From contig CM075941.1 of NCBI GenBank assembly GCA_038030265.1, positions 40,238,164 to 40,302,163 on the forward strand: 64,000 bases of DNA, written 5' to 3'. The position numbers and the translations under genes are program-made. The notes under the pieces are model-generated. The model did not search any database. It had not been told where the DNA came from and was given only the letters and a program-made list of their open reading frames with translations. This DNA comes from Corythucha ciliata. Lineage: Eukaryota > Arthropoda > Insecta > Hemiptera > Tingidae. Numbering within the stretch: position 1 is the stretch's first letter; each line of letters opens with the position of its first letter. Shown here in pieces: positions 19,430 to 64,000 of the stretch.

Positions 19430-19432
19430 ATA

Positions 19433-20254: not shown

Positions 20255-20258
20255 GGTT

Positions 20259-20276: not shown

Positions 20277-20281
20277 ATTAT

Positions 20282-28157: not shown

Positions 28158-28160
28158 GGC

Positions 28161-42130: not shown

Positions 42131-42385
42131 ACTGCAGTCCTGGTGAATGATCGCCGCCGGAGAACTGTTGTGACAGCGGGAGGGAAGAGGCAGCGCGTGT
42201 TGGTCAAACTTTATGAGACGAGCCCCTGGGATGTGGAGGTGGACTACTACAACATACCGCAGTGGAATGAAATTTCCTTCAGCAGAGATGACGTTGAGGG
42301 AATTGTTAAGATACTTCCCAAGATTGATGGAGCTGTTGATTTGTTGACAAGATTGTTAAAGGAAAATATAGACAATTCGCTCTAA
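41885..42385 (+). CDS. Polinton terminal-repeat gene, possible PC4-like ssDNA-binding protein
   Basis: 166 residues from ATG 41885; a longer frame starts at 41855. MAVYELSTGALSWGGG is followed by VEVYVRWRPGGIIVVLAKKKRELFIDA, then a second half with TVTAVLVNDRRRRTVVTAGG, VKLYETSPWDVEVDYYNIPQWNEISFSRDDVEGIVKIL and IDGAVDLLTRLL. Two beta-rich blocks each ending in a helix recall the PC4/p15 ssDNA-binding fold; this is a structural guess from pattern. The first half lies in the terminal repeat, and the solo repeat at 28.9 kb keeps the same peptide. It converges tail-to-tail with the integrase at 42386. Confidence 0.6.
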   Translation: MAVYELSTGALSWGGGVEVYVRWRPGGIIVVLAKKKRELFIDAGGGGEDGWDGLKKVLVDLAWMRGVERSEHDVVLFRSSTVTAVLVNDRRRRTVVTAGGKRQRVLVKLYETSPWDVEVDYYNIPQWNEISFSRDDVEGIVKILPKIDGAVDLLTRLLKENIDNSL

Positions 42386-43333: not shown

Positions 43334-43341
43334 TGTCTTAG

Positions 43342-44547
43342 TTAGTAAATGTGGCCAGCTTCTCGAAGTTCTTCCACGATTGAATTAATCTCAGTTATAT
43401 GACCTTCGTGACCGCTGCCGTATGATGCGTAGAGTAATCGAAGACGATTGATGAGTTCATTAGGATCGTCCCAGTAAGAATAAGAAGTAGGTTCGGAAGG
43501 CAACAAATTATAAGATGTATCGACGCCGGATCCTACGTGTGCTAATGTGTTTTTAGCCAAAATGTTTCTGTACTTGGAGTTTCCAGTTATCAAACGACCA
43601 TTATTGGCATAACCCTGACGGCTAGCATTGGTTTTGTCAATAATTTCTCGATAATTCTTGACGTCATCTTGTGTATAGTTAGAAGGTTCCTTGAGGAATA
43701 GAAGCTCATAGAGACCAGATGTACCATTGTATGGTCTATTGTCAACATAGATATTACTATGGTCGAAAGTAAGTTTTCCTCTTCCAATCATAACCGACCC
43801 ATTTGTTGCGACTTTTGGGCCATAAATTTTGTCCAAACGACCCGATAGAAATCCATGATCGCCACTAATAAGAGCTTGAATGAAAGGATGTGCATGGGAG
43901 CTGAACTGTGACATTGATTGAAGTTCCTTCCCTTGATCTGCTCTTGAAGCAGTGCGCATCGATCTTGCACCGTCACCAGCATTATTTTCCTCAGCTTTTT
44001 GTGAGAAACCTCCGTCATCGATTAATTGTTTCTTTTTCAATAAACTGGTTTCATGCTTCTTCGCTGACGTTGGTAAGGTTGAGGTTCTGGCGGTTGCCAG
44101 CGGAGTAGATGTCGTTAAAAGTGGCACCTCAATTTCCGGTTCCGAAAATGATTCAAATGTTTCCTTCTTCCATACGTTTTCATTTTCTCCCTCGTCACCG
44201 TCATGATGCTCGAGAGAAATGCGGGAGGTGTCCAACTTCACACTATTTTCCAAGTTAGTTTTTTGTTTTTTGATTTGAGAAATGCGGGAGGTGTCCAACT
44301 TCACACTATTTTCCAAGTTAGTTTTTTGTTTTTTGATTTTTTTATGTTTAGCGATTGCTTTTAAAGGCTCAATTACTGGTTGGAGCGTTTTACTAATGAG
44401 TGCCGCTTGGAAATCTTCGTTGCTTTTTAAGTCTCTAAATTTTCTTTTCAGCGACTCCTTCGCCTTGACGACGCTGCTTAGTACGCTCGTCATGTTGTGA
44501 GAACGATGATTAAAACTCCGCAGGAGCGGCTCATCCTTTTTATTCAT
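43342..44547 (-). CDS. Polinton-conserved protein of unknown function
   Basis: 401 residues. Basic, coiled N-terminal half with a tandem in-frame repeat of 21 residues (IKKQKTNLENSVKLDTSRIS twice, DNA 44214-44339). Acidic middle (HHDGDEGENENV). The conserved C-terminal domain contains GPKVATNGSVMIG, NIYVDNRPYNGTSGLYELLF and YREIIDKTNA, which I recall as a recurrent domain of unknown function in arthropod Polintons. Sits between integrase and ATPase; its start overlaps the ATPase stop (AATGAATGA). Confidence 0.75.
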   Translation of the reverse strand: MNKKDEPLLRSFNHRSHNMTSVLSSVVKAKESLKRKFRDLKSNEDFQAALISKTLQPVIEPLKAIAKHKKIKKQKTNLENSVKLDTSRISQIKKQKTNLENSVKLDTSRISLEHHDGDEGENENVWKKETFESFSEPEIEVPLLTTSTPLATARTSTLPTSAKKHETSLLKKKQLIDDGGFSQKAEENNAGDGARSMRTASRADQGKELQSMSQFSSHAHPFIQALISGDHGFLSGRLDKIYGPKVATNGSVMIGRGKLTFDHSNIYVDNRPYNGTSGLYELLFLKEPSNYTQDDVKNYREIIDKTNASRQGYANNGRLITGNSKYRNILAKNTLAHVGSGVDTSYNLLPSEPTSYSYWDDPNELINRLRLLYASYGSGHEGHITEINSIVEELREAGHIY

Positions 44548-45258
44548 TCATTTTGCTTTGTTACTACTATGAATTCATCCAATTTTTTCCTATATCGGCC
44601 ATTATTCAAAGAACTGTCCTTATCTATTACTAAGAACCCATATTTATCAGTATTCCAACACTTTGCACACAAATATTTAAACTTCGCAAAACTCATATCA
44701 GCTCCAACGTGCTCATTGTATACATATGTGCTGGAGATTCAGATCATCTTGGCGGAAAATGGCTATGAAATTTGTGTTATCACGAATTAACTGTTTAGGA
44801 ACTCGAGTGAATGTTTGGGCTAAATAGAAACAATCCACTTGGTGATGTCGCCCCCTCGTGAAGTAGTCGCGCATTGTGTCTTGAGATGATGTGATGACGT
44901 CATCAAAAATCATTATTGAGAGAGGTCGTGCGCTTTCTGGGGGTAAAACTTCATCTTTATCCGTAAACTCATGGTATTTGATTTGGGGAATGCTCTCCAT
45001 GACGCGTCTAAGATAAATATATGCTGGCTGATTAAGCGTTTTGCTGTAAACGTAGACATTTTTGAACTTGAGACCATTCTTGTGTAATAAAAGCGTCAAC
45101 ATCAAATTGGTTTTCCCACAATTGCTCGGACCGCAAAAAACCGCTCGGATGGTGTTCGGTAACAAAGGGCTATGTCTGGGGGATGATGGTTTTGTGCCGA
45201 TCCCATTAGCCCGTAAAGGTGTAACAGCGAGGGACAACTCATGTTTACGAGTTTTCAT
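44548..45258 (-). pseudogene. Polinton genome-packaging ATPase, one frameshift
   Basis: ATG 45258. Walker A GPSNCGKT (residues 43-50), Walker B SIMIFDDV (114-121) and YLAQTFTRVPKQLIRDN, as in FtsK/HerA-type packaging ATPases of Polintons and adenovirus-like viruses. The frame ends at 44713, but sequence in a neighbouring frame continues with HVGADMSFAKFKYLCAKCW and a typical C-terminus to 44548. So a small indel near 44728 removes the last 55 or so residues. It drives DNA into the capsid. Confidence 0.83.
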
Positions 45259-45366
45259 GTTTACCCAAAATGGTTTCTTTTAGTCAACTAGAGGGGTTGT
45301 TGGAGCAGCTGCTCAATATATAAGTGGGAGAATAAGCGTAAAAGTAGGCATTAATACGGGGAAAAT

Positions 45367-46233
45367 ATGCAGCGACGGTGTAAAAGAAGAGAAGTCACCG
45401 GCAAAGGATTAGTCAATTCGATCATCTCCAATATACCGTTTGAATTACACTTGCCCACCTACCAATATTGTGGACCGGGAACTCATTTAGAGAAACGATT
45501 AGCTCGAGGCGATCCGGGTAAAAACCCGTTGGACCAAGCTTGCAAATCTCATGATATAGCCTATTCGAAGAGTAAAGATATAGCGTCACGTCACGCAGCA
45601 GACCTTCAGTTAGCGGACAGAGCTTGGGAACGTGTGACCTCAAAAGACGCCGATATTGGTGAGAAGGCAGCCGCGTGGCTTGTTACGAACGCCATGAAAA
45701 CGAAAGTGAAATTAGGAGCAGGAGTCAAACGCAGACAACGAAGTGTAGACCAAAAGGTGGCCCGACCACCCACCTACATTCCTTTTAGTCAGATCATGAG
45801 AGTCGCTCGACTGAGGAAAAATAAAAGAGACGTTGAAAAAGGAAATTCCTTGCTGGATCAAGCTAAAAAGTCCATAAAACAATCTACGAATTATTTGCGA
45901 AAGGTGAATAAAGGAAAAAGGAAAAACGGTTACGCCGTGAAAATTCCTAGAGTTCTGCCTATTCCTCAGCAAACGAAGACATGGGAAGGGGGATTTCTAC
46001 CATTTTTACTCCCGTTAATCTCCGGACTATCGGCAATCGGAAGTCTAGCCGGGGGAGCGGCAGCCGTCGCAAAAGCGGTGAATGCTTCCCGATCGGCTCT
46101 ACAAGAATTGGAGGAGAGCAAGCGGCGCAATCAATCCTCGGAAATACCCGAACAAAAAATAGGCGCCGGCATGTTTTTAAAACCATATCGAAAAGGTTAC
46201 GGCATCTTCCTGAGGCCCTACGGAAAATCTTAA
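45367..46233 (+). CDS. Polinton minor capsid protein with phospholipase A2 domain
   Basis: 288 residues. A PLA2 motif at residues 34-66 shows the calcium loop YCGPGT and catalytic CKSHDIAYS, as in parvovirus VP1 unique regions and some Polinton capsid proteins, where it helps breach the endosome. The middle is basic. The C-terminus has a Gly/Ala-rich hydrophobic helix (LLPLISGLSAIGSLAGGAAAVAKAV) and GAGMFLKPY repeats typical of small-virus minor capsid proteins. First gene of the rightward capsid cluster, divergent from the ATPase. Confidence 0.82.
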   Translation: MQRRCKRREVTGKGLVNSIISNIPFELHLPTYQYCGPGTHLEKRLARGDPGKNPLDQACKSHDIAYSKSKDIASRHAADLQLADRAWERVTSKDADIGEKAAAWLVTNAMKTKVKLGAGVKRRQRSVDQKVARPPTYIPFSQIMRVARLRKNKRDVEKGNSLLDQAKKSIKQSTNYLRKVNKGKRKNGYAVKIPRVLPIPQQTKTWEGGFLPFLLPLISGLSAIGSLAGGAAAVAKAVNASRSALQELEESKRRNQSSEIPEQKIGAGMFLKPYRKGYGIFLRPYGKS

Positions 46234-46646
46234 ACGCTTTGCCTAATCGACCACTGACAGATAAAGAATTGTTTAATGCCGCGAATCCCATTCTAGGTGA
46301 GGTGGGGTTTCAAGGTGTATTCATGAGTGATTCCTTACCCTCATGGCGTCGCCGCCACCACCGTTTCGGGAAGAAACAAAACGAGTGTGCTATAGTTAAT
46401 TTGGATAAATCTAGCGGTTCCGGGACGCATTGGGTCGCATTTTCGAAGCGCGGCAATGTTGTGAAGTACTTTGACAGTTTCGGTCTCCCTCCCCCACCAG
46501 CGATAATTCACTACCTTCGCGAACGGGGGAGCGAATTTATTTACTATTTCCGCGAAAAAATGCAACAGGACGACTGCTGGCACTGTGGGCACTACTGTCT
46601 GGAGTTTTTATTTAATGAGGCTTTTCCCTCATTCTACTCTCACTAG
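46225..46646 (+). CDS. Polinton adenovirus-type maturation cysteine protease
   Basis: The frame is open from 45981 but the conserved body starts near 46225 (PLTDKELFNAANPIL). Catalytic His in GTHWVAF, Asp in YFDSFGLPPP, Gln/Cys region in QQDDCWHCGHYCLEFL. This is the adenain/Ulp1 fold used to process capsid precursors. The overlap of open frames with the PLA2 gene end makes the exact start unsure: no ATG lies at the expected place. Confidence 0.85.
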
Positions 46647-46652
46647 CTCACC

Positions 46653-47348
46653 ATGTCTCACATAGTGATTCTCTCAGGGAAGACGTCAGAACTATCATCG
46701 GATTTTTTCCCACCACTAAAGCTCGATGAATCTGCAGACTACAGTATAGGACTGATAAGCTTCCAATCATTTTACACCATTCCAAATGTTGAAGCAGGCG
46801 TCAATAATGAATTTAACTTCGATGGTGGAACAATTTATATCCCAACTGGCACCTATGAAGTGAAGGATATAGCCGATTATATTCAGGAGAGTTTGAGAGA
46901 AATGTTCCCCGAACACAAACTACGCTTGGAAGCCGACTTGACAACAATGCGTGTGAAATTAAAAGCTAACTTCGTCATCAATATGGGTCACCCGCGCTCT
47001 ATTGGAAAACTTCTAGGTTTCGGACCATCCAGATATTTGTTGGAAAGTGATAACGAGCACACGAGTGATACAGCCTTGAATATACACGGATTTAATGCAA
47101 TCAACATTGAGTGCAATGTGGTGAGCGGAGCATTTCAGAACGGTCGAGCCAGCCACACCATTCACACTTTCTTTCCAACAGTCGCTCCTGGCTATAAGCT
47201 TATCGAATTAGCCAACCCTGTATTGTATTTAAGTTTAAATACTCACATAATAACTAACATTACTGTGAGAATTGTGAATGAGAACGGATCTTTGCTATCT
47301 TTTCTTGACGACGTCATTACTGTACGGCTGCATATTAAAAAAGAGTAA
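46653..47348 (+). CDS. Polinton penton-like minor capsid protein
   Basis: 231 residues from ATG 46653, 4 bases after the protease stop. Begins MSHIVILSGKTSELSSDFFPPLKLDES and is beta-rich throughout, with LLGFGPSRYLL in the middle. Position between protease and MCP and the sequence style match the single-jelly-roll penton protein of Polintons. Intact. Confidence 0.75.
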   Translation: MSHIVILSGKTSELSSDFFPPLKLDESADYSIGLISFQSFYTIPNVEAGVNNEFNFDGGTIYIPTGTYEVKDIADYIQESLREMFPEHKLRLEADLTTMRVKLKANFVINMGHPRSIGKLLGFGPSRYLLESDNEHTSDTALNIHGFNAINIECNVVSGAFQNGRASHTIHTFFPTVAPGYKLIELANPVLYLSLNTHIITNITVRIVNENGSLLSFLDDVITVRLHIKKE

Positions 47349-47353
47349 AGCTA

Positions 47354-47536
47354 ATGGGTTTGGATTTTACCCCTACATCGAGAGAGCAGTATAACTTTGA
47401 AAATAATAAAAACAAGTCGCACTTGTTTGCTCCCTCCAACATCCCTGGAAGAAGTCATCATCACCTCCGCATTACACCAAAGAATATTAAATTTTTAAAA
47501 AGTCTTGGCTATAACGTGAGGGCACAAAGAAAGTGA
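47354..47536 (+). CDS. Small Polinton capsid-cluster protein
   Basis: 60 residues, 3 bases after the previous stop. The C-terminus LRITPKNIKFLKSLGYNV is a motif I associate with short proteins in this position of insect Polintons. Role unknown; tight spacing suggests co-expression with penton and MCP. Confidence 0.55.
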   Translation: MGLDFTPTSREQYNFENNKNKSHLFAPSNIPGRSHHHLRITPKNIKFLKSLGYNVRAQRK

Positions 47537-47542
47537 GAAGAA

Positions 47543-48782
47543 ATGACGGGCAACATACTATCGATTAGTGAGGGATTCAGTTTCAACGATGATATCGAGC
47601 GATATGAGGAGCGCCAATATGATTCTTTTAATACGTCATATGATAATAGCGATGAGGTACGAATTGTTATGTACCAAAGGGACACAATTACCTTGCCAAG
47701 CCGAAGTTACCTTCACATAGAAGGATCATTGACTAAGGCCGACGAAACTACTAGAGCGAAACTAATTAATAACGCATTCGCTTTCTTATTCGAATCAATA
47801 CGCTATGAGATCCATTTGTACCGAAGTGGACTCGGTGCGAAATCCTGGGATTGTTAGCACGTTAAAAACGTACGCTTCATTATCCACAACTGACTTACTT
47901 GCGCTGGGAAATGCAGGCTGGGCCACTCCAAGTATTGAGGAAAATGGGGTTGCGAAGATTGTGATGGATTCGAAGGAAGAATACTTCAACGTGTATTTAC
48001 CCCTAAAACTTCTCATGGGGTTCTTTGAGGATTATGGAAAAGTCTTGGTCAATGTTAAACAGGAACTGATCTTGTTAAGATCGAGTTTAGACAAGAACTC
48101 GTTAGTTGCGTCGGAAAATTCAAACAACGCCATCATTAACTTATCAAAAGTTTCATGGATTGTTCCACACATTACCGTTTCGGATAAGAGGAAAATCAGT
48201 CTATACCGCACAATAGAGAGCGGTAAGCCATTGTATTTACCGTTCCGGACATGGGAACTCCATGAGTACCCAAATTTGCCAACATCAGACAAATTTACTT
48301 GGCAAGTAAAAACATCGTCTAACTTGGAGAAACCGCGTTTTATTCTTATCGCTCTACAGACTGCTCGAAAAAATGATATAACTAAAAATATGTCCGTATT
48401 CGATCCTTGTGATATTTGTGATGTTAAAGTGTTCCTCAATGATCAAGTATTTCCATACCAAGATATGAATCTAGACTTCAATAAGAACAAAATTGCCCCT
48501 TTGTATGAAAAATACCTACAGTTCCAAACAAGCTACTATTATGGAACATCATCTCAACGCTGGTCGGAGCCGCTTTTGTCGCGCACCTTCTTTCAATCAT
48601 CACCCATTTTCATAATAGATTGCTCCCACCAGAGAGAGCCAGTTCAAGAAGCGACTGTCGACATCAGACTTGAATTTAGAGCAACAAAGGCTATATCTGC
48701 CCAATCGACTTGTTATTGCATCCTGATTCATGATACTATATTAGAGTACACCCCGCTAACTGGAGCGATCAAGAGGCATTGA
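47543..48782 (+). pseudogene. Polinton major capsid protein (double jelly roll), one frameshift
   Basis: Two overlapping frames, 47543-47857 and 47805-48782, form one protein of about 410 residues; a one-base indel near 47812 separates them. Motifs NSDEVRI, LPSRSYLHIEGSL, NAFAFLFESIRYEI, LLGFFEDYGKVL, PFRTWELHEYP, EKPRFILIALQT and FIIDCS recur in the MCPs at 59-60 and 63-64 kb. The MCP builds the icosahedral shell. Confidence 0.83.
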
Positions 48783-48931
48783 TGTTACAAATGACTACGG
48801 ACTTGATCGAACCTGCTGAAGGAAACGGTTTGGAGACCCAATGCATTAGAGGAAAATAATTTTAGATCTATAATTTTGGTCAAATAAAAGCTGTATTTAT
48901 TCCTTCATTATATTTGTTTTTTCCTTTACAA

Positions 48932-51900
48932 TTAATTTTCTATTACAATGTTTTTGTATGCTGTTGTGTCTACATTATTTTCTGATATAATACGTTTATC
49001 ATCGAGCCCACATAAGGTTTTTTTATTTATTTTGTAAGTGTTAAGCTCATGATTCTTAGAACGTATAGAATACATTACACTATACATATTACAATCATTA
49101 TGGCTAGCATTAAATAAAGTATCGTAGTAATCCTGGAATGTAATATTTTTATTTATTACTGTTTTTCCGACCCCTTTAGCTTTCTTTATTTCACTACCTC
49201 CATCTACCAATATTGAGTACATTTTAGCTCGCAGGCCAATGTACTCACTTATCGGGACCCCTGCAGTTTCGTCTTTAAATTTTCCTATCACTTTTTTATT
49301 CATTGTTGAGTAACATGGATGTGAATGATTATAATTTGATGTGTCCAAGTAATCTTTCAAAAAATTCCTCATGTCATCATAAACATCTTTAGTAGTGACC
49401 TCATAAAGGAAACTATCAGTGTCCATATATAGCAAGTGTAATAGTGACGGATTGTACAATTTCAGCATCACGTTGTAGTGAAAGTCATACATTAATGTTT
49501 TGGAGATTTCAAGAATGGAAAACCCGACATAAATTGGGCGGTTAAAAATAATATTTTCTTTTTCTAGTATTACCCCAACAATATTTTCGTCGTATATTAT
49601 ACGGTCTTTAAAACTAGGACGATTCACTAACTTTTGTAGCCTGCGTTCAGAAGCCACAAGGTGCATGTCCATTCTCTTACGTAAATTTTCCATAGTTTTT
49701 CCGAAGACGGAATTTACCATTAGTTTAAAAAAATCCCGCTCAAAGTCATTTCTAGCAAGCTTTCGCTTCTCAGCATTTATTTCTACGTACGGCTTCAACC
49801 ATGGTGACTGTTTAAACGACAATATACGATGCACTTTGCTAACTTTCAAACCTAGTTGAATGGCCTGTTTCAAATTTCTATAGTGCACCACATAATGCGA
49901 TTTGTCCGTCAAGTCCGCAATTAGTTTTTTACAAGTTCCCCTACTTCCAGGAGGAATTTTTGATTCAGGAAGGGGTGGAAATTCATCTAGGTAATCATAT
50001 AGAGTTGGATCAACACGTACGTCTACTTCAAAAATGTAGCCTGTGTCAGAGTCATCGGGAATTAGCTGAACATCGATATTAATATCCTCCTCCCACTTAA
50101 AGTCATGTGAGGGTAATGCGTTACACCCCATTGCCCACCCGTAGAGGCTCGTCACGTCTAAAAAGAGCAAATATTTATGTTCTTCTTCCGGGTTATAAGT
50201 TTTTGTCACATATGGGTTATTTGCTTTTGAATGACGCTTAATACAGTTTGTAATTCCCCCTCTCATACCTTTCTCAATGAAAAGTATCTGATCATAATTC
50301 GTTAGTAAGTCGAGTTTAACTCCAGTGGTGAGAAGCATAGAATCAGACGCTAGACCCGGAACTGTAAAATACCAAGCAGGATCAAGCTGATAAACTCTCT
50401 GACACAAGTTCCTAAACTGTTCAAAGATATCACATAACAGGTATACATCAGTTTTTAAGTAAAGTTCCATGTACTGACGGAGGGTTTGAATATTAAATGT
50501 GTCCCACACGGTTTTTGCGTGGAGATAATCATCAATTGATAACTCCTCTTGAGTCAAATCATTAAAAAAATGTTCACGCTTCGGCAGACATTTTTCTTCT
50601 AATTTACTCCAATCATCCATATATGAATATGGGTAAACACCTTTGCGAAGAAGTAAGCTTCTTTCAGATCTTTCAGGAAATGCCTGAGTCATTTCTGGAA
50701 ATTCCGTCAAGGTCTTTGCTAGTTTCGCGATGCTCTGGGGTAAAAATCTGAATGAATCTAAAAATCGAACAGACATTTTCTTACAGGTCTTAAACTTTTT
50801 GCTAAAACTTATATATTTTTCTTCCGTATTAGGTATCACATGAATGTCACCTTCATCAATACCGAGTTTTTTTACTATTGGATGAGAATCATACCCGCTT
50901 AAATTGTGAAAGTATACAGGAATGAATGATGGTAAGGTATAATTGAGATTACATGATTGATGCGCCGCGCATTGGAAGGCTCCAGTTAAGTGGCAATGAT
51001 GGTGCACCTTAATTTCATTCAGACTAAATGGTTGTTCACAAATACCGCACTGAGGGGCTTTCAGAAAATTAATGTTTTCCACATGTGTAAGAGGACTCAT
51101 TGGTATAATTTTTTGGTATAGCTTTTCTACATCGGAGCTCAACTCAGCAAGATATAGCATTAATTTTTCGACAGCATCCTGTCCTGTGTAAATCCACGGG
51201 GGCCTATTGAAAATATGCTCAGGTAGAGAAGTTTTAACAACAACTCCCACAGAACATATTTCATGTTTATGGATTTTATCACTCCATGGTTTACCTGGAG
51301 AATTGTGAGCGGTATGAATGGGAATTAGCAAAGCCTCAAAGTCGGCATAGACAACTATCGGGACTCTCTGTTTATGCTTATGATTCTCAAAACAGACGAA
51401 TGTTTTATCTTTCCCTACTATCGGCACCTCCACACGACAGGGGGCATGTGCGGAACACAGCCGGATGTGTTCTTTTAAGCGCTCTTCCCCCGTCTTTCCA
51501 TAAATGTCTTTTCTTGTAGAACGATATGTCTTAAAACATCTTCGACAAATTGATACTTTTGACTCAGGATCGAGCTGGCTGGCAACTAATCTAGATAGAT
51601 CTTTAATTAAACTAAAATGGGTGGTATCGTCTTTTTTCTGGTATAATAGGTCAAAGTGTTGCACAACGTCTGATTTTGCCGATATGCGAACCGGGTAGAC
51701 TTTACTCTTTTCGTTTAGGGCATAAACATTACAACTGATCTGGTTTAATTTTTCAAATTTGCTAATCTGATTTAAAGTCACGGGGAAAGTCAAATCTCGG
51801 AAGCTATAAGTATGTTGAAGGTTATCATAAGAGGAAATTGAAACATCATTCGGTCTTCTGAGCAAAGACGAAAGTATCGCATACTTGAAACATTCGTTAT

Positions 51901-52642
51901 TGTCGTTCTTCAAGTTCACCACCGCGTTTCGATTAGCGATATACTTTGGAAGCGGAATGTAGCTAGCCCCTTTGAGCGGGTTGTACTTCGAAATTCTAAC
52001 AATTAAGCCATCAACTCTTGACAGTGACCAGTTAGAGCCCTTAGTTTGGAATTCGTCCTGTTCATTTAACATTTTTGTATAACATTTACCCACATATTCT
52101 TCAAGGTCAGAACTATCGTCTAATGTTTCCGCCTTCGTTTTGAAATTTGCATCAGTACAGCCCCCCTCAATCGGTTTTTCATAGAAACATTCTAGCATAA
52201 AGCTCGACTTGATATTTTTGAACTCTTCGATATTTTCTTTGAGCAAATTGTATACTTTTTTATAAACCGAACCAAGAAATAATTTCGGTTCCGTAAAGTT
52301 GTGAATGTTTTTCAAATACATATCCCTAACAGCCCCTTTAAACGCTAATCGAACCATCCCAACTTCATCAGCTATCATAGCAGATCTACTTCGTTTACTT
52401 CCACTAGGTCCCGCTTGATCCATTTTACGTTTTTCCCCACCCATCTCTACTTGTTTTGAACCGCTACAGAACTTCTCGTGTTTTTTCATAACATCCATCC
52501 TTCCGAATGTCTTTTCACACTTGGAACACTTAAACTTGACCTTATCGACACACTGTAAAACGTGTCTTCTAAAGTTTTTTCTATTTATACTAGTCTTACA
52601 TTTTGGACATTCGGAAGTCTTTTCTTTCGCTGCATCAGCCAT
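48932..52642 (-). CDS. polB: Polinton protein-primed family B DNA polymerase
   Basis: 1236 residues, intact. Two N-terminal C2H2-like fingers (CPKCKTSINRKNFRRHVLQC, CSKCEKTFGRMDVMKKHEKFC). A YFHNLSGYDSH block (exonuclease region), motif A DVTSLYGWAMG (about residue 830), motif B KLMVNSVFGKTMEN (about 975) and motif C MDTDSF (about 1073). Size and motifs fit protein-primed PolB of Polintons, which replicates the linear element from its terminal repeats. It converges with the capsid cluster. Confidence 0.93.
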   Translation of the reverse strand: MADAAKEKTSECPKCKTSINRKNFRRHVLQCVDKVKFKCSKCEKTFGRMDVMKKHEKFCSGSKQVEMGGEKRKMDQAGPSGSKRSRSAMIADEVGMVRLAFKGAVRDMYLKNIHNFTEPKLFLGSVYKKVYNLLKENIEEFKNIKSSFMLECFYEKPIEGGCTDANFKTKAETLDDSSDLEEYVGKCYTKMLNEQDEFQTKGSNWSLSRVDGLIVRISKYNPLKGASYIPLPKYIANRNAVVNLKNDNNECFKYAILSSLLRRPNDVSISSYDNLQHTYSFRDLTFPVTLNQISKFEKLNQISCNVYALNEKSKVYPVRISAKSDVVQHFDLLYQKKDDTTHFSLIKDLSRLVASQLDPESKVSICRRCFKTYRSTRKDIYGKTGEERLKEHIRLCSAHAPCRVEVPIVGKDKTFVCFENHKHKQRVPIVVYADFEALLIPIHTAHNSPGKPWSDKIHKHEICSVGVVVKTSLPEHIFNRPPWIYTGQDAVEKLMLYLAELSSDVEKLYQKIIPMSPLTHVENINFLKAPQCGICEQPFSLNEIKVHHHCHLTGAFQCAAHQSCNLNYTLPSFIPVYFHNLSGYDSHPIVKKLGIDEGDIHVIPNTEEKYISFSKKFKTCKKMSVRFLDSFRFLPQSIAKLAKTLTEFPEMTQAFPERSERSLLLRKGVYPYSYMDDWSKLEEKCLPKREHFFNDLTQEELSIDDYLHAKTVWDTFNIQTLRQYMELYLKTDVYLLCDIFEQFRNLCQRVYQLDPAWYFTVPGLASDSMLLTTGVKLDLLTNYDQILFIEKGMRGGITNCIKRHSKANNPYVTKTYNPEEEHKYLLFLDVTSLYGWAMGCNALPSHDFKWEEDINIDVQLIPDDSDTGYIFEVDVRVDPTLYDYLDEFPPLPESKIPPGSRGTCKKLIADLTDKSHYVVHYRNLKQAIQLGLKVSKVHRILSFKQSPWLKPYVEINAEKRKLARNDFERDFFKLMVNSVFGKTMENLRKRMDMHLVASERRLQKLVNRPSFKDRIIYDENIVGVILEKENIIFNRPIYVGFSILEISKTLMYDFHYNVMLKLYNPSLLHLLYMDTDSFLYEVTTKDVYDDMRNFLKDYLDTSNYNHSHPCYSTMNKKVIGKFKDETAGVPISEYIGLRAKMYSILVDGGSEIKKAKGVGKTVINKNITFQDYYDTLFNASHNDCNMYSVMYSIRSKNHELNTYKINKKTLCGLDDKRIISENNVDTTAYKNIVIEN

Positions 52643-52779
52643 CTTTCCTTGATCTCAGGACCGTTGTATGTATAGTTGCTAATTCAAATTGCTTCATTCA
52701 AGGCACATCATTAGAGACTCGTCTCCAAAGTGAAATAATGCCTATATAAAATGAAGAGTACAATACATTATCATCAAGG

Positions 52780-53217
52780 CTAATTGTTCAAGTACTCAAA
52801 GCAAATTGGTTTTACCTGTAAAACACAGTTGTTGCACCAGTAGTAACGATTTCGAACCACCTGCCGCACCACCCAGCCTTCCTCACCTCGCCTTACGGAT
52901 AAGATTTTCTCCGTCTTTTTCCAAAAAAACTTTTCGTACGGTGTTTTGGAGACTCGAACTAGACGATCTCCAACAGGTATGGGTGGCTTAGTTCCAACAA
53001 GCTCTATGTAGCATTTCAGGCAGTAATTATCTTTGAATATGTCGTCTTCTCCTTCATAAGACCATGTAGGCAAGGGTCTTAGTGAGTAATATAAAATGTG
53101 GCAGGGGGGGGGGAATTGAATCATATATTCATGGAGAGGAGACGCTACACTACACTTGCGTTGCGTGTTGAATGGAAATCGCCATATGTTTTTTGGAAAA
53201 ATATAAAACATATTCAT
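52780..53217 (-). CDS. Polinton accessory protein with paired CxxC motifs
   Basis: 145 codons open from 53217. The conserved part begins near CHILYYSLRPLPTWSYEGEDD. NYCLKCYIELVG and YYWCNNCVLQ give two CxxC pairs, a possible zinc ribbon. A relict copy at 18.6 kb keeps the middle segment. It lies head-to-head with the metalloproteinase gene and 137 bp upstream of PolB, so a shared promoter region is possible. No named family recognised. Confidence 0.55.
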   Translation of the reverse strand: MNMFYIFPKNIWRFPFNTQRKCSVASPLHEYMIQFPPPCHILYYSLRPLPTWSYEGEDDIFKDNYCLKCYIELVGTKPPIPVGDRLVRVSKTPYEKFFWKKTEKILSVRRGEEGWVVRQVVRNRYYWCNNCVLQVKPICFEYLNN

Positions 53218-53253
53218 CTCATTTGAGTTTATCCAGTCTTAATTTATCGATCA

Positions 53254-54831
53254 ATGCGTGCAGTTGTTTTTTTCTTATTGGTGCTTGAATGGGAAAGCAC
53301 TCTGGGTGATGCGTACCCTCTCAGAGTGAGCAAGTACCTTCAAACGTTTGGCTACCTGCCCAGCGACAAGAATGACTCATCAAAATCAAACACATACTAT
53401 GGAAAAGACATTTTGCATGAGGCTCTCACTTCTTTTCAAGAGACTTTTAATATTAAAGCAGATGGAGAACTAAATAATGATACAATGCTGATGATGGATA
53501 AGCCAAGGTGTGGCGTGCCGGACAATTTTGAATTGTTCCTGTCCTCACGAGACATTCGTTGGAGTAAAAGGACTTTGAAGTGGTACGTGATGGGAGAGGA
53601 TGCTGTTCTACAAATGGCCCTTGTACAGGCTGCATTTAATACATGGGCTCGATATGCAAATTTGAAATTTATACGTTCTCGAAACGACCCCGACATAGTC
53701 ATTTCCATGGAACGCTTGCAACACTATACTCTGAAATCTAAAGGCGCACAATTGTGCTCCACGGTATTTGATGGTCCGGGCGCTATTTTAGCCCACGCTC
53801 AATTTCCACACGTCAATTCAACTTCGATGCTGGAAATACATGTTGATAGTGATGATAACTGGTCTTTTAGCCGCCGTACACCCATTGGAGATGATCTCGT
53901 ATCTTACTACTGGGTAATCCTCCACGAAATCGGACACGCTTTAGGTTTAAGGCATGACAGCCAGCACGCTGAATCTATTATGTATCCATATGTTCCCCAC
54001 TTCGACTCGGAAACTGATTTGATCAATGCTACTCTTATTCCAACTGACGTTGAGGCTATTCAATATTTGTATGGTCCACCCATCAGCAATCCTCCTGAAG
54101 TTACTAGCAATGTTCCGACTCTTGAAACCTCAACACAACGTTCAATTAGCACAAGCGTTAATAAAAATGTATGTCACTTGCTGCGTGAAAAAATTATTGA
54201 AAACTACTTGGTTGTGAATGAAAATTTGTTTGTTTTTCATAAAAAACTCGTTTGGGTAATTCCTCTGTCGAAATCGATAAGAAGTGAGCGTCATCTCACA
54301 GATGCTAAGATTATTACCGAATGGTTACCGTTTCTGAATAGTGAATTCACTCATGTTAAATCTATTTACCAGCGTCCTAATGGTAATGTAATTCTCTTTG
54401 ACAATAGTCGTGCGTACGAGTTTACATACCCAGGGCTACAATTCTTGAATGAAAGTGACGTCAACAAGGATTCATTTGCCTCAATCTCCTCAAATATTGT
54501 GTCCGCTATTCATACCAATAAGGGGAAAACCCTATTTTTCACCAATGATTCATATGTTTACGAATTTAACGAATGTAGCAATTCCGCCTTCCTTCAAGGA
54601 ACACATTTCAAACTTTTCAACGGCGTGCCTGCCAATATTGTGGGGGGATTCAAGGGTGTTAACGGTCTTATTTACTTCATCGATTCTTCTCATCAGCTTC
54701 ATGAGTACAATGAATTTTTAAACACCGGGTCTATCGCGAGTCATCAAAGCCCTCTTAAGGTTTTCAATATAGGTTGTGGCAATCGTTCATATATCAATCA
54801 AATTTTTGAACTCTTGGATAAGATAATGTGA
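53254..54831 (+). CDS. Matrix metalloproteinase, full length, Polinton cargo
   Basis: 525 residues, single exon, intact. Signal peptide at residues 1-19 (MRAVVFFLLVLEWES); peptidoglycan-binding-like prodomain with SFQETFNIKADGELNNDTMLMM; cysteine switch KPRCGVPD (83-90) that keeps the zymogen latent; a basic RWSKR site before LKWYVMG; catalytic zinc site HEIGHALGLRH (224-234) with Met-turn SIMYPYV (241-247); Thr/Ser linker; C-terminal hemopexin-like repeats (about 295-525) closed by a Cys at each end. This is the layout of secreted animal MMPs that cut extracellular matrix. Host MMP genes normally have introns; this one has none and sits between PolB and other Polinton genes, inside the terminal repeats. 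Probably captured from a host mRNA or another virus. Confidence 0.93.
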   Translation: MRAVVFFLLVLEWESTLGDAYPLRVSKYLQTFGYLPSDKNDSSKSNTYYGKDILHEALTSFQETFNIKADGELNNDTMLMMDKPRCGVPDNFELFLSSRDIRWSKRTLKWYVMGEDAVLQMALVQAAFNTWARYANLKFIRSRNDPDIVISMERLQHYTLKSKGAQLCSTVFDGPGAILAHAQFPHVNSTSMLEIHVDSDDNWSFSRRTPIGDDLVSYYWVILHEIGHALGLRHDSQHAESIMYPYVPHFDSETDLINATLIPTDVEAIQYLYGPPISNPPEVTSNVPTLETSTQRSISTSVNKNVCHLLREKIIENYLVVNENLFVFHKKLVWVIPLSKSIRSERHLTDAKIITEWLPFLNSEFTHVKSIYQRPNGNVILFDNSRAYEFTYPGLQFLNESDVNKDSFASISSNIVSAIHTNKGKTLFFTNDSYVYEFNECSNSAFLQGTHFKLFNGVPANIVGGFKGVNGLIYFIDSSHQLHEYNEFLNTGSIASHQSPLKVFNIGCGNRSYINQIFELLDKIM

Positions 54832-55039
54832 GGAAGCCCCTCGTGAAGTGTGAGAATAAAATAATGAATAAATATGATTTGAACAAACGTACGTTTTTGA
54901 AATATATTTCTCGCTTTTTTTAACATATAAGGGAATATAAAAGCGCATTTCGCTTCGAATATGATTTAAAGTAATTCTCTACATTATTATTTGTTTTATC
55001 AATGTATAATATATTTACTACGAAACACGACGTACTAAT

Positions 55040-55679
55040 TTAATTAGTTATATCCATGATAAATTCGACAGCGTGTGATCGCCCACACTTCCCTCGATAA
55101 ACCAGGAATTTCGAGGGAAGCTGATTGAAAAGGTTCACTTCGTCCGCTCCCATGGCTTCCACCAATCTGGTCGGGAGGTAGACCGTCCTGACGACGTCTG
55201 CGACCCGTATTTGGGCTGTGATGTTTTGCCCATAAGTCTCGTGCTCTCCGAGCCGTAGTTTTATGATGGGGTACTCATGTCCCTCCTCCAACTCGGAGAG
55301 ACGAATGAGTGGTGAATTGGCCGTTTCATTTACCCTACGAAGAAATTCCGCGAGATCTGGAATTAATGCAAAATAACAAAAATTTTTATGAAATGTTCCT
55401 AGGTGTACTTTAGAAAATCATAATTTGACTAAGGGAATGTTGAGAAAAAGCAAATAAAAGAACATCCAATTTTTTCAAACTATGGGAGCCCGTATTAATA
55501 ATCGCCGCTGAAACTGAGTATTTGCTATTTCAATTCAAAAAACCAACGCAATAATTATAACAACCGATTTGGAACAGCTTAACATTTACTCAGCTTGACT
55601 GACGACTATGAACAAGGCCCAAGTACCAGAATAATATTGTTGTGTACTCACCCAAGTTTGATGAAGTTTCGGATGGCAT
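55040..55679 (-). CDS. Polinton accessory small protein (SELEEGHEY family), one intron
   Basis: Exon 1 55679-55652 starts MPSETSSNL. GTGAGT donor at 55651, acceptor TTCCAG at 55357, exon 2 55356-55040. The spliced product is about 114 residues with ETANSPLIRLSELEEGHEYPI, GQNITAQIRVADVV and YLPTRLVEAM. The LSELEEGxEYPI plus beta-strand pattern suggests an OB-like nucleic-acid-binding fold, an inference only. A relict with two stops at 20.7 kb has the same acceptor. Confidence 0.65.
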
Positions 55680-55861
55680 TGTTTCGCTGGCGATACTCGT
55701 TGACAAACTTAGTTCCCACTTCACTTCTCAGAGCCTTTATATACAACGTTCCAATATCGCCTAACCAAAATTTCCGTTTCTAGAATATTCGCCCTAAACC
55801 ACACATCCTATCAAGTTTTTTTTCTCTCTGGTGATTCCTTTTTTCGAACAAATTAGTAGAA

Positions 55862-56205
55862 GTCATTAAAAATTATTTGAGTAGTACATTCTTTTATTTT
55901 ATTTATGACCGTCGAGGGATATCTCCTTCTTTATTTTTACGGATAAGGAGAACTTTTTCACTCATTATTCTAATTGACAAAATTTTTGAGAGTTTCGTGA
56001 ATGTTAATAATTGCAAGTCAATTAATTTGAGTAGTACATATCTCCTTCTTTATTTTTACGGATAAGGAGAGCTTTTTCACTCATTATTCTAATTGACTCA
56101 CTCATTATTCTAATTGACAAAATTTTTAAGAGTTTCATGAATGTTATTAATTGCAAGTCATTAAAAATTATTTGAGTAGTACATTCTTTTATTTTATTTA
56201 TGGTC
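55862..56205. repeat. AT-rich direct repeats
   Basis: Blocks containing ATCTCCTTCTTTATTTTTACGG and TTTTTCACTCATTATTCTAATTGA recur two to three times, with a further copy of TTATTTGAGTAGTACATTC at both ends. No coding content. Confidence 0.75.
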
Positions 56206-56287
56206 CCTTAAAAATTAATAGAAGTATCAGGACAGATGAAGTAGGGTGAATAAATGAGTCTATCTTGTTTCATGAAATCATGCTAAC

Positions 56288-56982
56288 TCACATTTTTTTA
56301 TTGTCATAATAAGTTTGATCTAGCCATTTGATTACAATGTCCTTAATCTTATCTACATAGTAGCAATTACAAGGCCCGTCAATTTCCCGCTCGTAGGGAG
56401 GTGGATCTCTGTAGATACATGGATCATAGTGTCCTCGGCAGTTTTTCGCGGTGTGAACTGTAGATGAGGCATCGTATAAACGAAGAACAGCGTTGTGTAG
56501 GGCAATATAATTCTCATCTTCCAAGTATTTTTCAAAGTTGTGAGACTTCACAACTTCTTGCCATTCGATAGCAATGTCAAGGGGGGTAAATGGTCTACTA
56601 ACAAAAAAAAAAAATAACCGCTCAATTTTACAAGAGAAAAAAGAGAGGTTGATAAATATTACCCGTCATTCGGCGCGATGAGATTCAAATATTTAATCAC
56701 ATCTAGTTTATACCAGTTCACGGTGTAGCAGAAACACCTGTCATCTTCCTTGCTCACAGGTAGTTCGTTCTCCTTTAGCTGACTGTAAGTGCAAGAAGAG
56801 TAGTGCCTCGAATTTTTCTTTTCACCGCTAACCGATTTAGACGCCTCCAAGTATCGCAGGACAGCTTCATGAATTTTAACATAATTGATGTAGTAAGTCA
56901 GATTGGATTGCTCGGACAAATACTTTTGGAAGTCCACCGAATCGAAAACTCTTTTAATTTCAGGAACAACTCCAACGTTCAT
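56288..56982 (-). CDS. Polinton accessory protein with two tandem copies of a Cys-containing domain
   Basis: Exon 1 56982-56663, intron of 65 bp (GTAATA donor at 56662, GTTAG acceptor at 56598), exon 2 56597-56288, spliced in frame to about 209 residues. Each exon encodes one copy of a domain with FxKYL, Y..LH.AVLR...AS, HY..C.Y, a CxCY pair and a VIK.L end, so the gene arose by internal duplication matched to exons. Rightmost gene before the terminal repeat. No known family recognised; Cys pattern suggests metal binding or disulfides. Confidence 0.6.
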
Positions 56983-57094
56983 GGTTGTTGAGGATAGTCA
57001 AACTGATTAATATTTATTATTATTATCCTGATTTATAGGAAAATTTACGGAAATATAAAAAATGAGTTATTACAACTATCATTCACTTGGACCA

Positions 57095-57504
57095 CAGTTT
57101 CCGTACTCGACCCCTCATCATCTTCACTCCGCTCCAACACCCCTCATCTTACCAAAACCTTTTTCAGTCCACCCCACACATCCTCCCCACCGCCGGCATC
57201 GATGAACTCATACCAACCAGATCGATCCCACTCGCCGTCAACAAAAATTTTTTTTCATCGCTCCACCATCAAACCCATCTGACTGAACCTCGTCGACCCT
57301 ACACTCATCTACCCCAAGTATTCCCACAACTATCAACTCGTCGACGGTAGCCGAGTGGATAGCGCTCTCGTCTCCCAACCTCATACCAACCGGATCGATC
57401 CCACTCGCCGTACACAAAAAATTTTTCACCGCTCCACCATCAAACCCTCTCTTTTTCATGTCGCCACCATGCGCCACCTCTGGAACCGGCCTTTCCTATC
57501 TACT
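57095..57504. repeat. Right terminal inverted repeat of the Polinton
   Basis: About 410 bp. The block matching 41885-41990 is missing and replaced by a partial duplicate of ACCAACCAGATCGATCCCAC sequence, so the MAVYEL start codon exists only at the left end. Confidence 0.85.
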
Positions 57505-58028: not shown

Positions 58029-58124
58029 GTCCGCATTTTAACGTACATGTTTCAAAAACAACGTCCGCTTTTTAATGTTTACTTTCAGGGATTAACAACT
58101 TACGTCCGCAATTTACTGACTCCC
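58029..58124. repeat. Right terminal region of the MULE with three GTCCGC boxes
   Basis: Mirror of 40912-41025; see the MULE entry. Outer edge followed by the AATATTAC duplication at 58125-58132. Confidence 0.65.
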
Positions 58125-58475
58125 AATATTACAAGTCCTCTGAACTTCATAACAACCGGTTCCTTATATAACTCCTTTATAACTATAGACTCCCCTTCTA
58201 ACAGGTTTTTTAACAAAACAGAATCAATTTTAGACAACTCAACATCATTACAAAGAATGACCATGTGATGCTCTTTTAAACCTGCGAAATAATGCCCACC
58301 ACCGGAATCAAAAACAACTTCTTCACAATATTTAATCAATAACCTAACAAAATAAGTTTTACCGCAATTAGGAGGACAACATATATACAAATGTTTCTTT
58401 TTATGATACCACTCAGTAGAAACATGACTACAATAAAAATCATAAGCATCAAATGCCCAACTACCATATATGCTT
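58125..58475 (-). pseudogene. Endogenous CRESS-like Rep helicase fragment
   Basis: Superfamily 3 helicase features: Walker A CPPNCGKT, a Walker B-like MVILCND, then FKLRG-like FRGLVI where the MULE cuts the C motif. The gene continues at 40839-40911. The 5' part with the rolling-circle endonuclease is absent: at about 58475 the sequence switches to the end of the neighbouring FKPP gene. Rep initiates rolling-circle replication of small circular ssDNA viruses. A parvovirus-type helicase is an alternative, but the adjacent basic-arm capsid gene favours CRESS. Confidence 0.6.
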
Positions 58476-58901
58476 AAGTCCGTCGACCTCGTTGAGGTCG
58501 ATGAGTTCACAGTTGCTGAGATCGATTCGTTGCTGGAGAAATCGAATCTTTTCGGGCCCCTTCACGTAGAGGCGGTTGAACGGAGCAAGGTAGGTCCTCA
58601 GGACCTCGTTGAGGAGATTGTACGGCACAACACCCTCGTCCCACCCGAGCCCGTGGTGCTTAGCGCTCAGGTAGTTGTTCTGTTCCAGCGAGGCCGCGGG
58701 TGAGTGACGGGCAGGTGATGGCGGCTTGAACAGCCAGTGGCCCGAAGCTCGGCTCTCCAGGTCAATTATTGCCAGCTCCTTGACGATGAAACCACTGCCG
58801 CCGCCGCTCCCTTTGCAGTTGCAGTTGCAATGGCGAGGTCCATGGAATGCGTGAAAGCCCACGACGGCAGAGTGGGCTGATGAAGAGGTGGACAAGTCCA
58901 T
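58461..58901 (-). CDS. FKPP-motif protein of unknown function, copy 1
   Basis: ATG 58901, about 140 codons. The head AVVGFHAFHGPRHCNCNC is followed by a Gly/Ser loop, FIVKELAIIDLES, GHWLFKPPSPA and a NNYLSAKHHGLGWDEG block, then a LYVKGPEKIRFLQQ region. I recall similar KELAI/HWLFKPP proteins as a widespread, unnamed family in insect genomes linked to virus-like elements; an RNase H or exonuclease-like fold is conceivable. The last few residues (LKHIW) come from the junction with the Rep fossil, so the natural C-terminus may be lost. Copy 2 at 62546-62869 is shorter. Confidence 0.6.
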   Translation of the reverse strand: MDLSTSSSAHSAVVGFHAFHGPRHCNCNCKGSGGGSGFIVKELAIIDLESRASGHWLFKPPSPARHSPAASLEQNNYLSAKHHGLGWDEGVVPYNLLNEVLRTYLAPFNRLYVKGPEKIRFLQQRIDLSNCELIDLNEVDGLKHIW

Positions 58902-60015
58902 GGTAGGCGGCAGTCTAAGGTCTCAAGGACGGTCAGCCCCTCTTTTATACATTGTGGCGGCGCACAATGCCGGAGAGGGGGTGATAGCTGACCAGTTTAT
59001 CGTGAATAACGAGACAGAAGGCCGTCGTGTTCGCCGGAAAGTTATTTTTTCCTTATGAAGACGTGAGTGAATCGAATTGTCGAGAGCAGTCAATTACAAA
59101 CAGGGGACCGATGTCGATGAATTCTTGCAGCGTCAAGAGAGGGGATTTGCCGTCCGAGTCGTAGAATGAGTCGGCGAAACGAGCGTACATATCGTATAGC
59201 TCTGCAATGCGTAATTTGTCAAAGTCGAGGTTCAGGTTGTCATACGGATAGCTCTCGCTTCCAATAAACAGCTTCATATTGGTCAGGGCGCATGCGTCGA
59301 ATCCAGCCGCGTTACTCACCAGACTGTTGGCGCGATCTGTCTGAAATCCAACCAGTACAAAGCGGGGTTTTTCCATCTGCGAGACAGTGCGCAGCGTCCA
59401 AGTTTGTTGGCTGGTCTTTGGCAGTGACGGATAGGTGTACAGACTCCACGACCTGAATGGAACGTGAATCGGCGGATCCGATTCGACGCGGGAGAGAAGA
59501 CGTAATTTCTGGGCGTCTCCCACCGGGAAAACTTGGGATGCGAGAAAACTCAACCTTGAGGTCGGGCAGAACCGCACCGGCGGCTGGGGCAGCAGCGGCA
59601 ATCCGTTTAAACATGTTTTTTTCATTGTTGGCTCGAAGCAGAATCAGCTCGAGGCGAACGTGGGCCATTATCTTGCGGTAGTCCTCGGCGAATCCCAAGA
59701 GTGAGCGTAGAGGAATGCTGGCGCAAAAATCGCCAGTAGTTGCATTGCCGATTGGATTGGGCACCCTGCTCGCAGGCATGGTCCACCCGGCCACACCCAG
59801 ACGATCCCCTTTGTCGAAGCTGGCATAACCCTTCACTGTACTCGCGAATCCACACTGCTTGGTCTGGTCAATTTCCACACCATTCACTACGAGGCGAATC
59901 TCCTCAAACGCGTAGGCAATTGCATTGGTGGTCAGAGTGTAGTCAGCATTCAGATTGGTGATTTTGCCCTCGACGTACGTATAGCTCTCCGAGGGTAGCA
60001 CGTAAATGTTGCTCT
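58645..60015. repeat. Tandem duplication unit A (FKPP plus MCP)
   Basis: Matches 62605-64000 in the same orientation, period close to 3.96-3.99 kb, with scattered substitutions and one 25-base deletion in this copy. The intervening 60.0-62.6 kb holds the other cluster genes. Confidence 0.88.
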
Positions 60016-60262
60016 GTTGAAACGGGATGCGCACTTCGTCCGAATTGCCATACTGCGCTGCTGAGGCGAACGCCTGGTGCGTATGGTAGGTGATCGATGT
60101 GATACTGTTGTCATACACAAGGGGAGTACCCTTAATGTCCAGGGTGTTAAGGTCAGAGCCGGCCAAGGTCAGGCGTTCGGCGGGCATAAGACAGGCGTTG
60201 AACAGACCTTCGCGATGGTGGGATAGTTCAAGGTCAATACCCGGAAAGTCCGCCACCACCAC
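59053..60262 (-). pseudogene. Diverged Polinton-type major capsid protein, copy 1, frameshifted
   Basis: Frames 60262-59312 and 59625-59053 combine to one MCP. NSDEVRI, VLPSESYTYVEGKI, NAIAYAFEEIRL, LLGFAEDYRKIM, VPFRSWSLYTYPSLP, EKPRFVLVGFQT, SYPYDNLNLDFD and FVIDCS align with the Polinton MCP at 47.5-48.8 kb, with clearly lower identity and much higher GC. The frame changes near 59522 (CCCAAGTTTTCCC). About 25 bases near the 3' end are missing compared with copy 2. The true start is unclear: the conserved region begins at TLDIKG, about 55 codons into the frame. Confidence 0.82.
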
Positions 60263-62533: not shown

Positions 62534-62584
62534 CTTGTCAAACTCTTATCGAGAGTAACGGATCGAAGCAAGGTTGCGACATGT

Positions 62585-62869
62585 GCGACACGCGAAAACC
62601 GCATGTCGCGGATGTCGCCCGTGGTGCTTGGCGCTCAGGTAGTCGTTCTGTTCCAGCGAGGCTGCGGGTGAGTGACGGGCAGGTGATGGCGGCTTGAACA
62701 GCCAGTGGCCCGAAGCTGGACTCTCCAGGTCAATTATTGCCAGCTCCTTGACGATGAAACCACTGCCGCCGCCGCTCCCTTTGCAGTTGCAGTTGCAATG
62801 GCGAGGTCCATGGAATGCGTGGAAGTCCACGACGGCAGAGTGGGCAGATGAGGAGGCGAACGAGTCCAT
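62585..62869 (-). pseudogene. FKPP-motif protein, copy 2, truncated
   Basis: Same protein as 58461-58901 for the first 82 residues (AVVDFHAFHGPRHCNCNC ... FKPPSPA ... YLSAKHHG). It then diverges at about 62620, the left limit of the tandem duplication. Confidence 0.7.
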
Positions 62870-64000
62870 GGTAGGCGGCAGTCTGAGGTCTCAAGGAGGG
62901 TCAGCCCCTCTTTTATACATTGTGGCGGCGCACAATACCGGAGAGGGGGTGATAGCTGACCAGTTTGTCGTGAATAATGAGACAGAAGGCCGTCGTGTTC
63001 GCCGGAAAGTTATTTTTTGCCTCAAATTCCAGCTTGATGTCAACGGGCGAAGACGTGACTGAATCGAATTGGCGCGAGCAGTCAATTATAAATAGGGGAC
63101 CGATGTCGATGAATTCTTGCAGCGTCAAGAGAGGGGATTTGCCGTCCGAGTCGTAGAATGAGTCGGCGAAACGAGCGTACATATCGTATAGCTCTGCAAT
63201 GCGTAATTTGTCAAAGTCGAGGTTCAGGTTGTCATACGGATAGCTCTCGCTTCCAATAAACAGCTTCATATTGGTCAGGGCGCATGCATCGAATCCAGCC
63301 GCGTTACTCACCAGACTGTTGGCGCGATCTGTCTGAAATCCAACCAGTACAAAGCGGGGTTTTTCCATCTGCGAGACAGTACGCAGCGTCCAAGTTTGTT
63401 GGCTGGTCTTTGGCAGTGACGGATAGGTGTACAGACTCCACGACCTGAATGGAACGTGAATGGGCGGATCCGATTCGACGCGGGAGAGAAGACGTAATTT
63501 CTGGGCGTCTCCCACCGGGAAAACTTGGGATGCGAGAAAACTCAACCTTGAGGTCGGGCAGAACCGCACCGGCGGCTGGGGCAGCAGCGGCAATCCGTTT
63601 AAACATGTTTTTTTCATTGTTGGCTCGAAGCAGAATCAGCTCGAGGCGAACGTGGGCCATTATCTTGCGGTAGTCCTCGGCGAATCCCAAGAGTGAGCGT
63701 AGAGGAATGCTGGCGCAAAAATCGCCAGTAGTTGCATTGACGATTGGATTGGGCACCCTGCTCGCAGGCATGGTCCACCCGGCCACACCCAGACGATCCC
63801 CTTTGTCGAAGCTGGCATAACCCTTCACTGTGCTCGCGAATCCACACTGCTTGGTCTGGTCAATTTCCACACCATTCACTTCGAGGCGAATCTCCTCAAA
63901 CGCGTAGGCAATTGCATTGGTGGTCAGAGTGTAGTCAGCATTCAGATTGGTGATTTTGCCCTCGACGTACGTATAGCTCTCCGAGGGTAGCACGTAAATG
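62605..64000. repeat. Tandem duplication unit B (FKPP plus MCP)
   Basis: Partner of 58645-60015; continues past the window edge. Confidence 0.88.
62913..64000 (-). pseudogene. Diverged major capsid protein, copy 2, runs off window edge
   Basis: Nearly identical to copy 1 over 59041-60010, including the same frame change (here near 63514). It keeps the full C-terminus: after FIIDCSRQFD it reads VDIKLEFEAKNNFPANTTAFCLIIHDKLVSYHPLSGIVRRH, which copy 1 has lost. The N-terminal part lies beyond 64000. Confidence 0.83.

Follow-up and report, generated by a model that had tools for sequence, protein, structure and literature searches.

A matrix metalloproteinase gene inside a Polinton/Maverick element of Corythucha ciliata and its possible role as an accessory gene

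Introduction

Matrix metalloproteinases (MMPs) are secreted zymogens that are freed by displacement of the switch cysteine and then cut matrix proteins. Among large insect DNA viruses, including Helicoverpa zea nudivirus 2, granuloviruses and ascoviruses, an MMP of the secreted type is present as an accessory gene on a dsDNA carrier. According to one report, every betabaculovirus sequenced by 2014 has an MMP, expression of a granulovirus MMP from a nucleopolyhedrovirus alters the melanisation of silkworm larvae, and the granulovirus enzyme is believed to contribute to virus spread (PMC4192325).

Protease cargo is also known from Mavericks. In nematodes, these elements carry and transfer the protease gene wosp, and a kinase gene, krma, is also among their cargo (PMC10680173). 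The locus described here resembles those elements in having a protease gene as cargo, whereas wosp belongs to another gene family, occurs in another host phylum and was found through toxin-antidote elements.

The present locus is located in a window of 64,000 nucleotides (the whole stretch of DNA analysed) from contig CM075941.1 of the C. ciliata assembly GCA_038030265.1. Its initial annotation knew of no MMP described as Polinton cargo, and this agrees with our full-text term searches, which were made partly by title, had the main adintovirus paper outside their scope, and returned no MMP or other metalloproteinase of Polintons or adintoviruses. In the text retrieved, the only match that combined Polinton with metalloproteinase refers to Poxviridae. 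Words starting with 'metallo' are absent from the main text of PMC8363768, which concerns Drosophila adintoviruses, and from that of PMC11071296 and PMC11071308. Within the reach of these searches, the new feature is an MMP as Polinton cargo, whereas MMPs in large insect viruses and protease cargo in Mavericks are already known.

Architecture of the element

The Polinton/Maverick element extends over positions 41659-57504 of the window and measures 15,846 bp from one terminal inverted repeat (TIR) to the other. The left TIR (41659-41888, plus strand) starts with AGTAGATAGG, is 230 nucleotides long and is 100% complementary to the right TIR (57275-57504, minus strand). Long TIRs of this kind, together with an rve integrase identified by profile and a type B DNA polymerase (PolB) of the protein-primed type identified by its homologues, are hallmarks of Polinton/Maverick elements. 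As in insect Polintons and adintoviruses, profile matches to an A32-like ATPase and a double-jelly-roll (DJR) capsid protein, both with apparently interrupted frames, and to a PLA2-like protein are also present, and the element differs from these relatives by the presence of the MMP gene.

The left part of the element contains genes on the minus strand. The integrase of 315 amino acids (42386-43333; PF00665, E = 8.8e-17) is followed by an ORF of 401 amino acids without a family match (43342-44547), which includes an exact 63-bp tandem duplication at 44214-44339. The next gene encodes the A32-like packaging ATPase (44713-45258; Pox_A32, E = 4.9e-7). Its frame is apparently broken before the C-terminal part and, as judged by eye, more coding-like sequence is present in another frame past the early stop. 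A scan of five proteins against PHROGs gave no matches besides a weak terminase match of this ATPase.

The next genes are located on the plus strand. The PLA2-like minor virion protein (45367-46233; PF08398, E = 1.4e-12) includes a stretch with weak resemblance to adenovirus pX (PF05829, E = 3.2e-4) that at 21 bits is under the cut-off of 25. An ORF at 45981-46646 bears a weak resemblance to the adenovirus endoprotease, a cysteine protease (Peptidase_C5, E = 0.061, below the cut-off), and an ORF of 231 amino acids at 46653-47348 has no family match and might encode a minor capsid protein, given its position. The DJR major capsid protein (47543-48782) is apparently split between overlapping ORFs at 47543-47857 and 47805-48782. 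The second of these covers positions 22-315 of the 316 in profile PF21738 (E = 1.9e-95), and the first, which has no family match, presumably encodes the N-terminal part of the protein. No match was obtained in a scan of IMG/VR with the capsid sequence. Because the capsid and ATPase frames, although matched by profile, both seem interrupted on visual inspection, this copy of the element is probably defective, barring sequencing errors.

PolB is a protein of 1236 amino acids encoded on the minus strand (48932-52642). Its own sequence has no match to PF03175, and a profile search of PDB with the PolB alignment found no polymerase, so that its identity rests on homologues. There are 138 of these at E <= 1e-60; among the 120 listed, four match PF03175, one is named as a DNA-directed DNA polymerase, and named insect proteins from Leptopilina, Nasonia, Ephemera, Euwallacea, Harmonia and Diabrotica are included. 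Scans of IMG/VR with PolB recovered two contigs of polinton-like viruses at 35-36% identity.

The 4.6-kb segment from PolB to the right terminus contains the MMP gene (53254-54831, plus strand). On the 5' side of this gene lies a divergently oriented ORF of 145 amino acids without a family match (ORF145; 52780-53217, minus strand). Its 3' neighbour is a segment with spliced-looking ORFs on the minus strand, namely an exon-like open segment at 55043-55417 without a Pfam match and two exon-like, cysteine-containing segments within 56291-56997, of which 56662-56997 was likewise unmatched in Pfam. By eye, these last segments near the right end of the element look like repeats of one cysteine-containing domain.

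A target-site duplication is the trace of an insertion rather than a part of the element proper. No 6-bp duplication is present at the ends of this element, where the outer hexamers are ACCATG on the left and GTCGGC on the right, and a duplication might have been lost through later rearrangement. The right end of the element adjoins an ORF that encodes a FLYWCH domain (E = 2.1e-6), and the ORF on the left flank has no Pfam match. We have the impression that these two ORFs might both belong to one broken gene of the FLYWCH/MULE type.

The metalloproteinase gene and its product

The MMP gene is an unbroken ORF of 525 codons, and its product was recognized by profile, motifs and predicted fold. 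The match to the Peptidase_M10 profile scores 97.4 bits (cut-off 24). The protein begins with a hydrophobic stretch at residue 1, followed by a prodomain, a catalytic domain (approximately residues 101-276), a hinge and a hemopexin-like domain (approximately 305-508) with its closing pair of cysteines. The cysteine switch PRCGVPD occupies residues 84-90 of the prodomain, which aligns with that of pro-stromelysin. This switch, the zinc site HEIGHALGLRH at residue 224 and the Met-turn SIMYP at residue 241 are characteristic of M10A peptidases. Structure prediction is consistent with folding as a zymogen with a hemopexin domain. No furin site is present in the protein.

These observations bear out the initial annotation in its central claim of a complete secreted-type MMP surrounded by perfect TIRs and situated between PolB and other genes of the element, and each of the motifs it listed was found. 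The putative signal peptide it proposed corresponds to a hydrophobic N-terminus as read from the sequence.

A TATAAA sequence that might serve as a promoter is found at 53202-53207 on the plus strand, 52 nucleotides 5' of the MMP start codon; on the opposite strand, the same nucleotides fall within the initial codons of ORF145. Two AATAAA sequences on the plus strand (54855-54872, starting at 54855 and 54867) are located 24 and 36 nucleotides past the stop codon and are putative polyadenylation signals. The gene was also considered as a processed pseudogene, and this reading is disfavoured because the frame has no break and, in the sequence read, no A-tract directly follows the gene.

Relatives of the metalloproteinase

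A search of approximately 5.8 billion proteins with the MMP as the single query returned 55 matches. The 15 closest (P0002-P0016, where P0001 is the MMP itself) have 28-36% identity, 60-100% coverage and scores of 182-330 bits. The next match in this single-sequence search, a fish MMP-20, scores 97 bits, well below the 182 bits of the lowest-scoring of these relatives. A search with the family profile returned 68 proteins at E <= 1e-10 and added no member of the usual length. In this second search the gap is blurred, since P0057, a protein of 982 amino acids named 'mmp20' from Pampus argenteus, reaches 384 bits compared to 381 for the fragment P0016; next come P0058 (970 amino acids) with 324 bits and P0018 with 271 bits.

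A tree was built from 37 sequences, comprising P0001-P0015 and 22 other matches; P0016, P0057 and P0058 are among those left out, and the sample is without insect Mmp1 and Mmp2 and without viral MMPs. The 15 family members form a single group on a branch supported at 100/100, within which the MMP of the window clusters with P0002-P0004 (support 100/99). Long branches are seen for P0018, P0027 and P0028, and the letter composition of P0011, P0014, P0015 and P0032 is unusual. Vertebrate secreted MMPs such as stromelysin, MMP-1 and MMP-20 differ from the protein described here in that they lie outside the family branch, and the best vertebrate match has 28% identity. Given the gap from 182 to 97 bits and the 100/100 branch, we conclude on sequence grounds that the MMP belongs to a distinct family.

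The cysteine-switch sequence RCGxxD is present in all 15 family members that cover the site (P0016 is partial), and HExxHxxGxxH is present in all 16. Across the 120 pairs, median identity is 40% for the catalytic domain and 34% for the hemopexin domain. The retention of both motifs at such divergence of the catalytic domain indicates, as far as alignments can, that the family is under long-term purifying selection.

No relative was found when IMG/VR was scanned with the MMP alone, and a scan with the family profile gave eight distant matches, none of which extends past query residue 274 to include a hemopexin part. Five of these eight loci (L001-L004 and L006) were inspected; the IMG/VR contig of L002 has a matrixin-like ORF at 3032-3724 and, at 11219-12019, encodes a second HExxHxxGxxH protein of 266 amino acids. 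In GTDB, the 80 loci listed of 95 all come from records with prokaryote titles, and some of the matches run past query residue 300.

When the predicted fold was compared to a library of viral structures, the best matches were MMPs of H. zea nudivirus 2 (E = 3.4e-28), granuloviruses (E = 4.0e-22), an ascovirus and an iridescent virus, followed by entomopoxvirus proteins. This predicted structural kinship agrees with the earlier remark that MMP-like genes occur in baculoviruses and other insect viruses, and the matches indicate that MMPs are found repeatedly across several families of insect DNA viruses. Identity over the alignments ranked 1-8 is 15-21%, in a comparison made by structure only. 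The carrier also differs, since here it is a 16-kb Polinton that bears an integrase.

Other copies of the element and alternative explanations

The reading that we favour, and consider somewhat probable, is that a Polinton (adintovirus-like) lineage carries the MMP as a working accessory gene. In its favour are the intact ORF with all parts of an MMP, its place within perfect TIRs among Polinton genes, a distinct family with conserved motifs, a GC content equal to that of the element, and the precedents of MMPs in insect DNA viruses and of wosp in nematode Mavericks. Among the points against it are that a single MMP-bearing copy is known and that this copy, with its capsid and ATPase frames apparently interrupted, might not make particles. 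The relic copy and the contig comparisons described below, the blurred score gap of the profile search and the lack of a target-site duplication also count against it.

The single copy and its apparent defects also favour the alternative of a one-off capture, in which an MMP from the host or from another virus was copied or inserted into a single Polinton copy and has been hitch-hiking without benefit. Further evidence on this point comes from a relic of this Polinton family elsewhere in the window, a decayed copy that is itself interrupted (18605-29259, plus strand). When 15 pieces of the element were compared to window positions 1-32400, four were matched, corresponding to both termini, ORF145 and the accessory segment at 55043-55417. 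The relic retains a piece of ORF145 (18605-18786, 96.7% identity), the stretch around the accessory segment (20632-21104, 84.7%) and the right terminus (28860-29259, 85.2%), in the same order and orientation as in the main copy. The MMP piece was unmatched in this region, and tblastn with the 16 family members found nothing there, which is consistent with a one-off capture. The matches flank the MMP interval on both sides, and within it lies other sequence whose reverse complement is present at both sides and which looks mobile-element-like by eye. Because the interval is filled in this way, the relic is uninformative on whether an MMP was ever present. The similar spacing of the flanking matches had raised the idea of a second MMP in the relic, which was rejected when tblastn with the 16 members found the known gene only. 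The difference in identity to the main copy between the ORF145 piece and the accessory stretch suggests a mosaic origin or constraint on ORF145.

Against a one-off capture, the 525 codons of the MMP gene have no frame break even though the capsid and ATPase genes seem broken, and TATA and AATAAA signals adjoin the gene. Since identity to the closest relative recovered is 36%, the gene is not a recent copy of any relative found. We regard a one-off capture as unlikely. The initial annotation had set its proposal against a processed host pseudogene confined to one copy and under relaxed selection. Relaxed selection disagrees with the purifying selection that the family appears to experience, whereas the relic without an MMP match leaves the restriction to one copy standing.

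It is also conceivable, and in our view quite unlikely, that the gene represents a lineage of insect host MMP paralogues that resides in genomes and from which the Polinton acquired its copy. The two named relatives among the 15 are annotated as host genes, both as 'collagenase 3-like', in the firefly Photinus pyralis and the planthopper Lycorma delicatula, and their contigs measure 71 and 404 Mb. Annotation pipelines also label genes of mobile elements as host genes, which weakens this argument. Moreover, the MMP gene lies strictly within identical TIRs, and the other 13 relatives, all from the source 'lgn' (taken to be Logan assemblies), are without any name.

A comparison of the lengths of the longest contigs found no length shared between the 15 MMP relatives and the 120 PolB relatives listed of 138, a result that weighs little either way. 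Likewise, the stretches searched of the two IMG/VR contigs with PolB matches (L009 and L010) gave no tblastn match to the 16 MMP family members.

An artefact of assembly or recombination that joined the MMP gene to Polinton ends is very improbable: the lack of a target-site duplication implies that the flanks of the element may have been rearranged, and the window does contain one run of 500 N (32448-32947, far from the gene), but the 230-bp TIRs are identical, no N run lies within the element, GC content is uniform (0.402 for the MMP gene compared to 0.400 for the whole element) and the layout is gene-dense.

A possible role in crossing tissue barriers

If the MMP is a working accessory gene of a Polinton lineage, its expression, secretion, activity, substrate and benefit to the element might be as follows, and we infer its carriage by other Polintons in the same way. 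The protein would be produced from the compact promoter and polyadenylation signals of its own gene and secreted as a zymogen that is kept inactive by the PRCGVPD cysteine switch. Because the protein lacks a furin site, activation would presumably take place outside the cell through another protease. The active enzyme might then cleave extracellular matrix, and the hemopexin propeller might assist in selecting or holding the substrate. As has been proposed for the MMPs of granuloviruses, progeny particles could thereby loosen or pass through the basal lamina that separates tissues. They might even reach the germ line, into which a Polinton has to integrate if it is to be inherited. By analogy with those viruses, crossing of the basal lamina appears to be the likeliest benefit of the MMP to the Polinton.

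A broader and more tentative possibility, to which we lend somewhat less credence, is that P0001-P0016 constitute a family of MMPs that is ancient, occurs throughout insects and is carried by Polintons, which retain it for passage across the basal lamina from soma to germ line or the reverse. Such a family would place a tissue-invasion gene in a group that is often still treated as transposons, and would be evidence for the spread of insect Polintons in the form of infectious virions. The MMP thus bears on the question whether Polintons travel as viruses from cell to cell and from host to host. An MMP acts only outside the cell, where a transposon confined to the cell interior should gain little from it, so that a conserved Polinton MMP would speak for a phase in which the element is infectious and crosses tissues. 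It would further document MMP capture by yet another lineage of insect DNA viruses and serve as a marker for active elements. The locus suggests that means of breaching tissue barriers may also be part of the gene content of Polintons.

Other virus-like sequences in the window

The window contains further virus-like sequences outside the element. A small element on the minus strand that encodes a DJR-like capsid protein is present twice, at 58100-60262 and 62546-63993 (PF21738, E = 5e-21 and 1.7e-22, respectively). Next to the first copy is a match to a helicase resembling papillomavirus E1 (E = 2.9e-6), and the element is possibly a small endogenous virus that combines a DJR-like capsid with an E1-like helicase. 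In addition, the minus strand at 38239-39168 carries the remnant of a flavivirus-like NS3 helicase (Flavi_DEAD, E = 2.7e-19), which represents an endogenous RNA-virus element.
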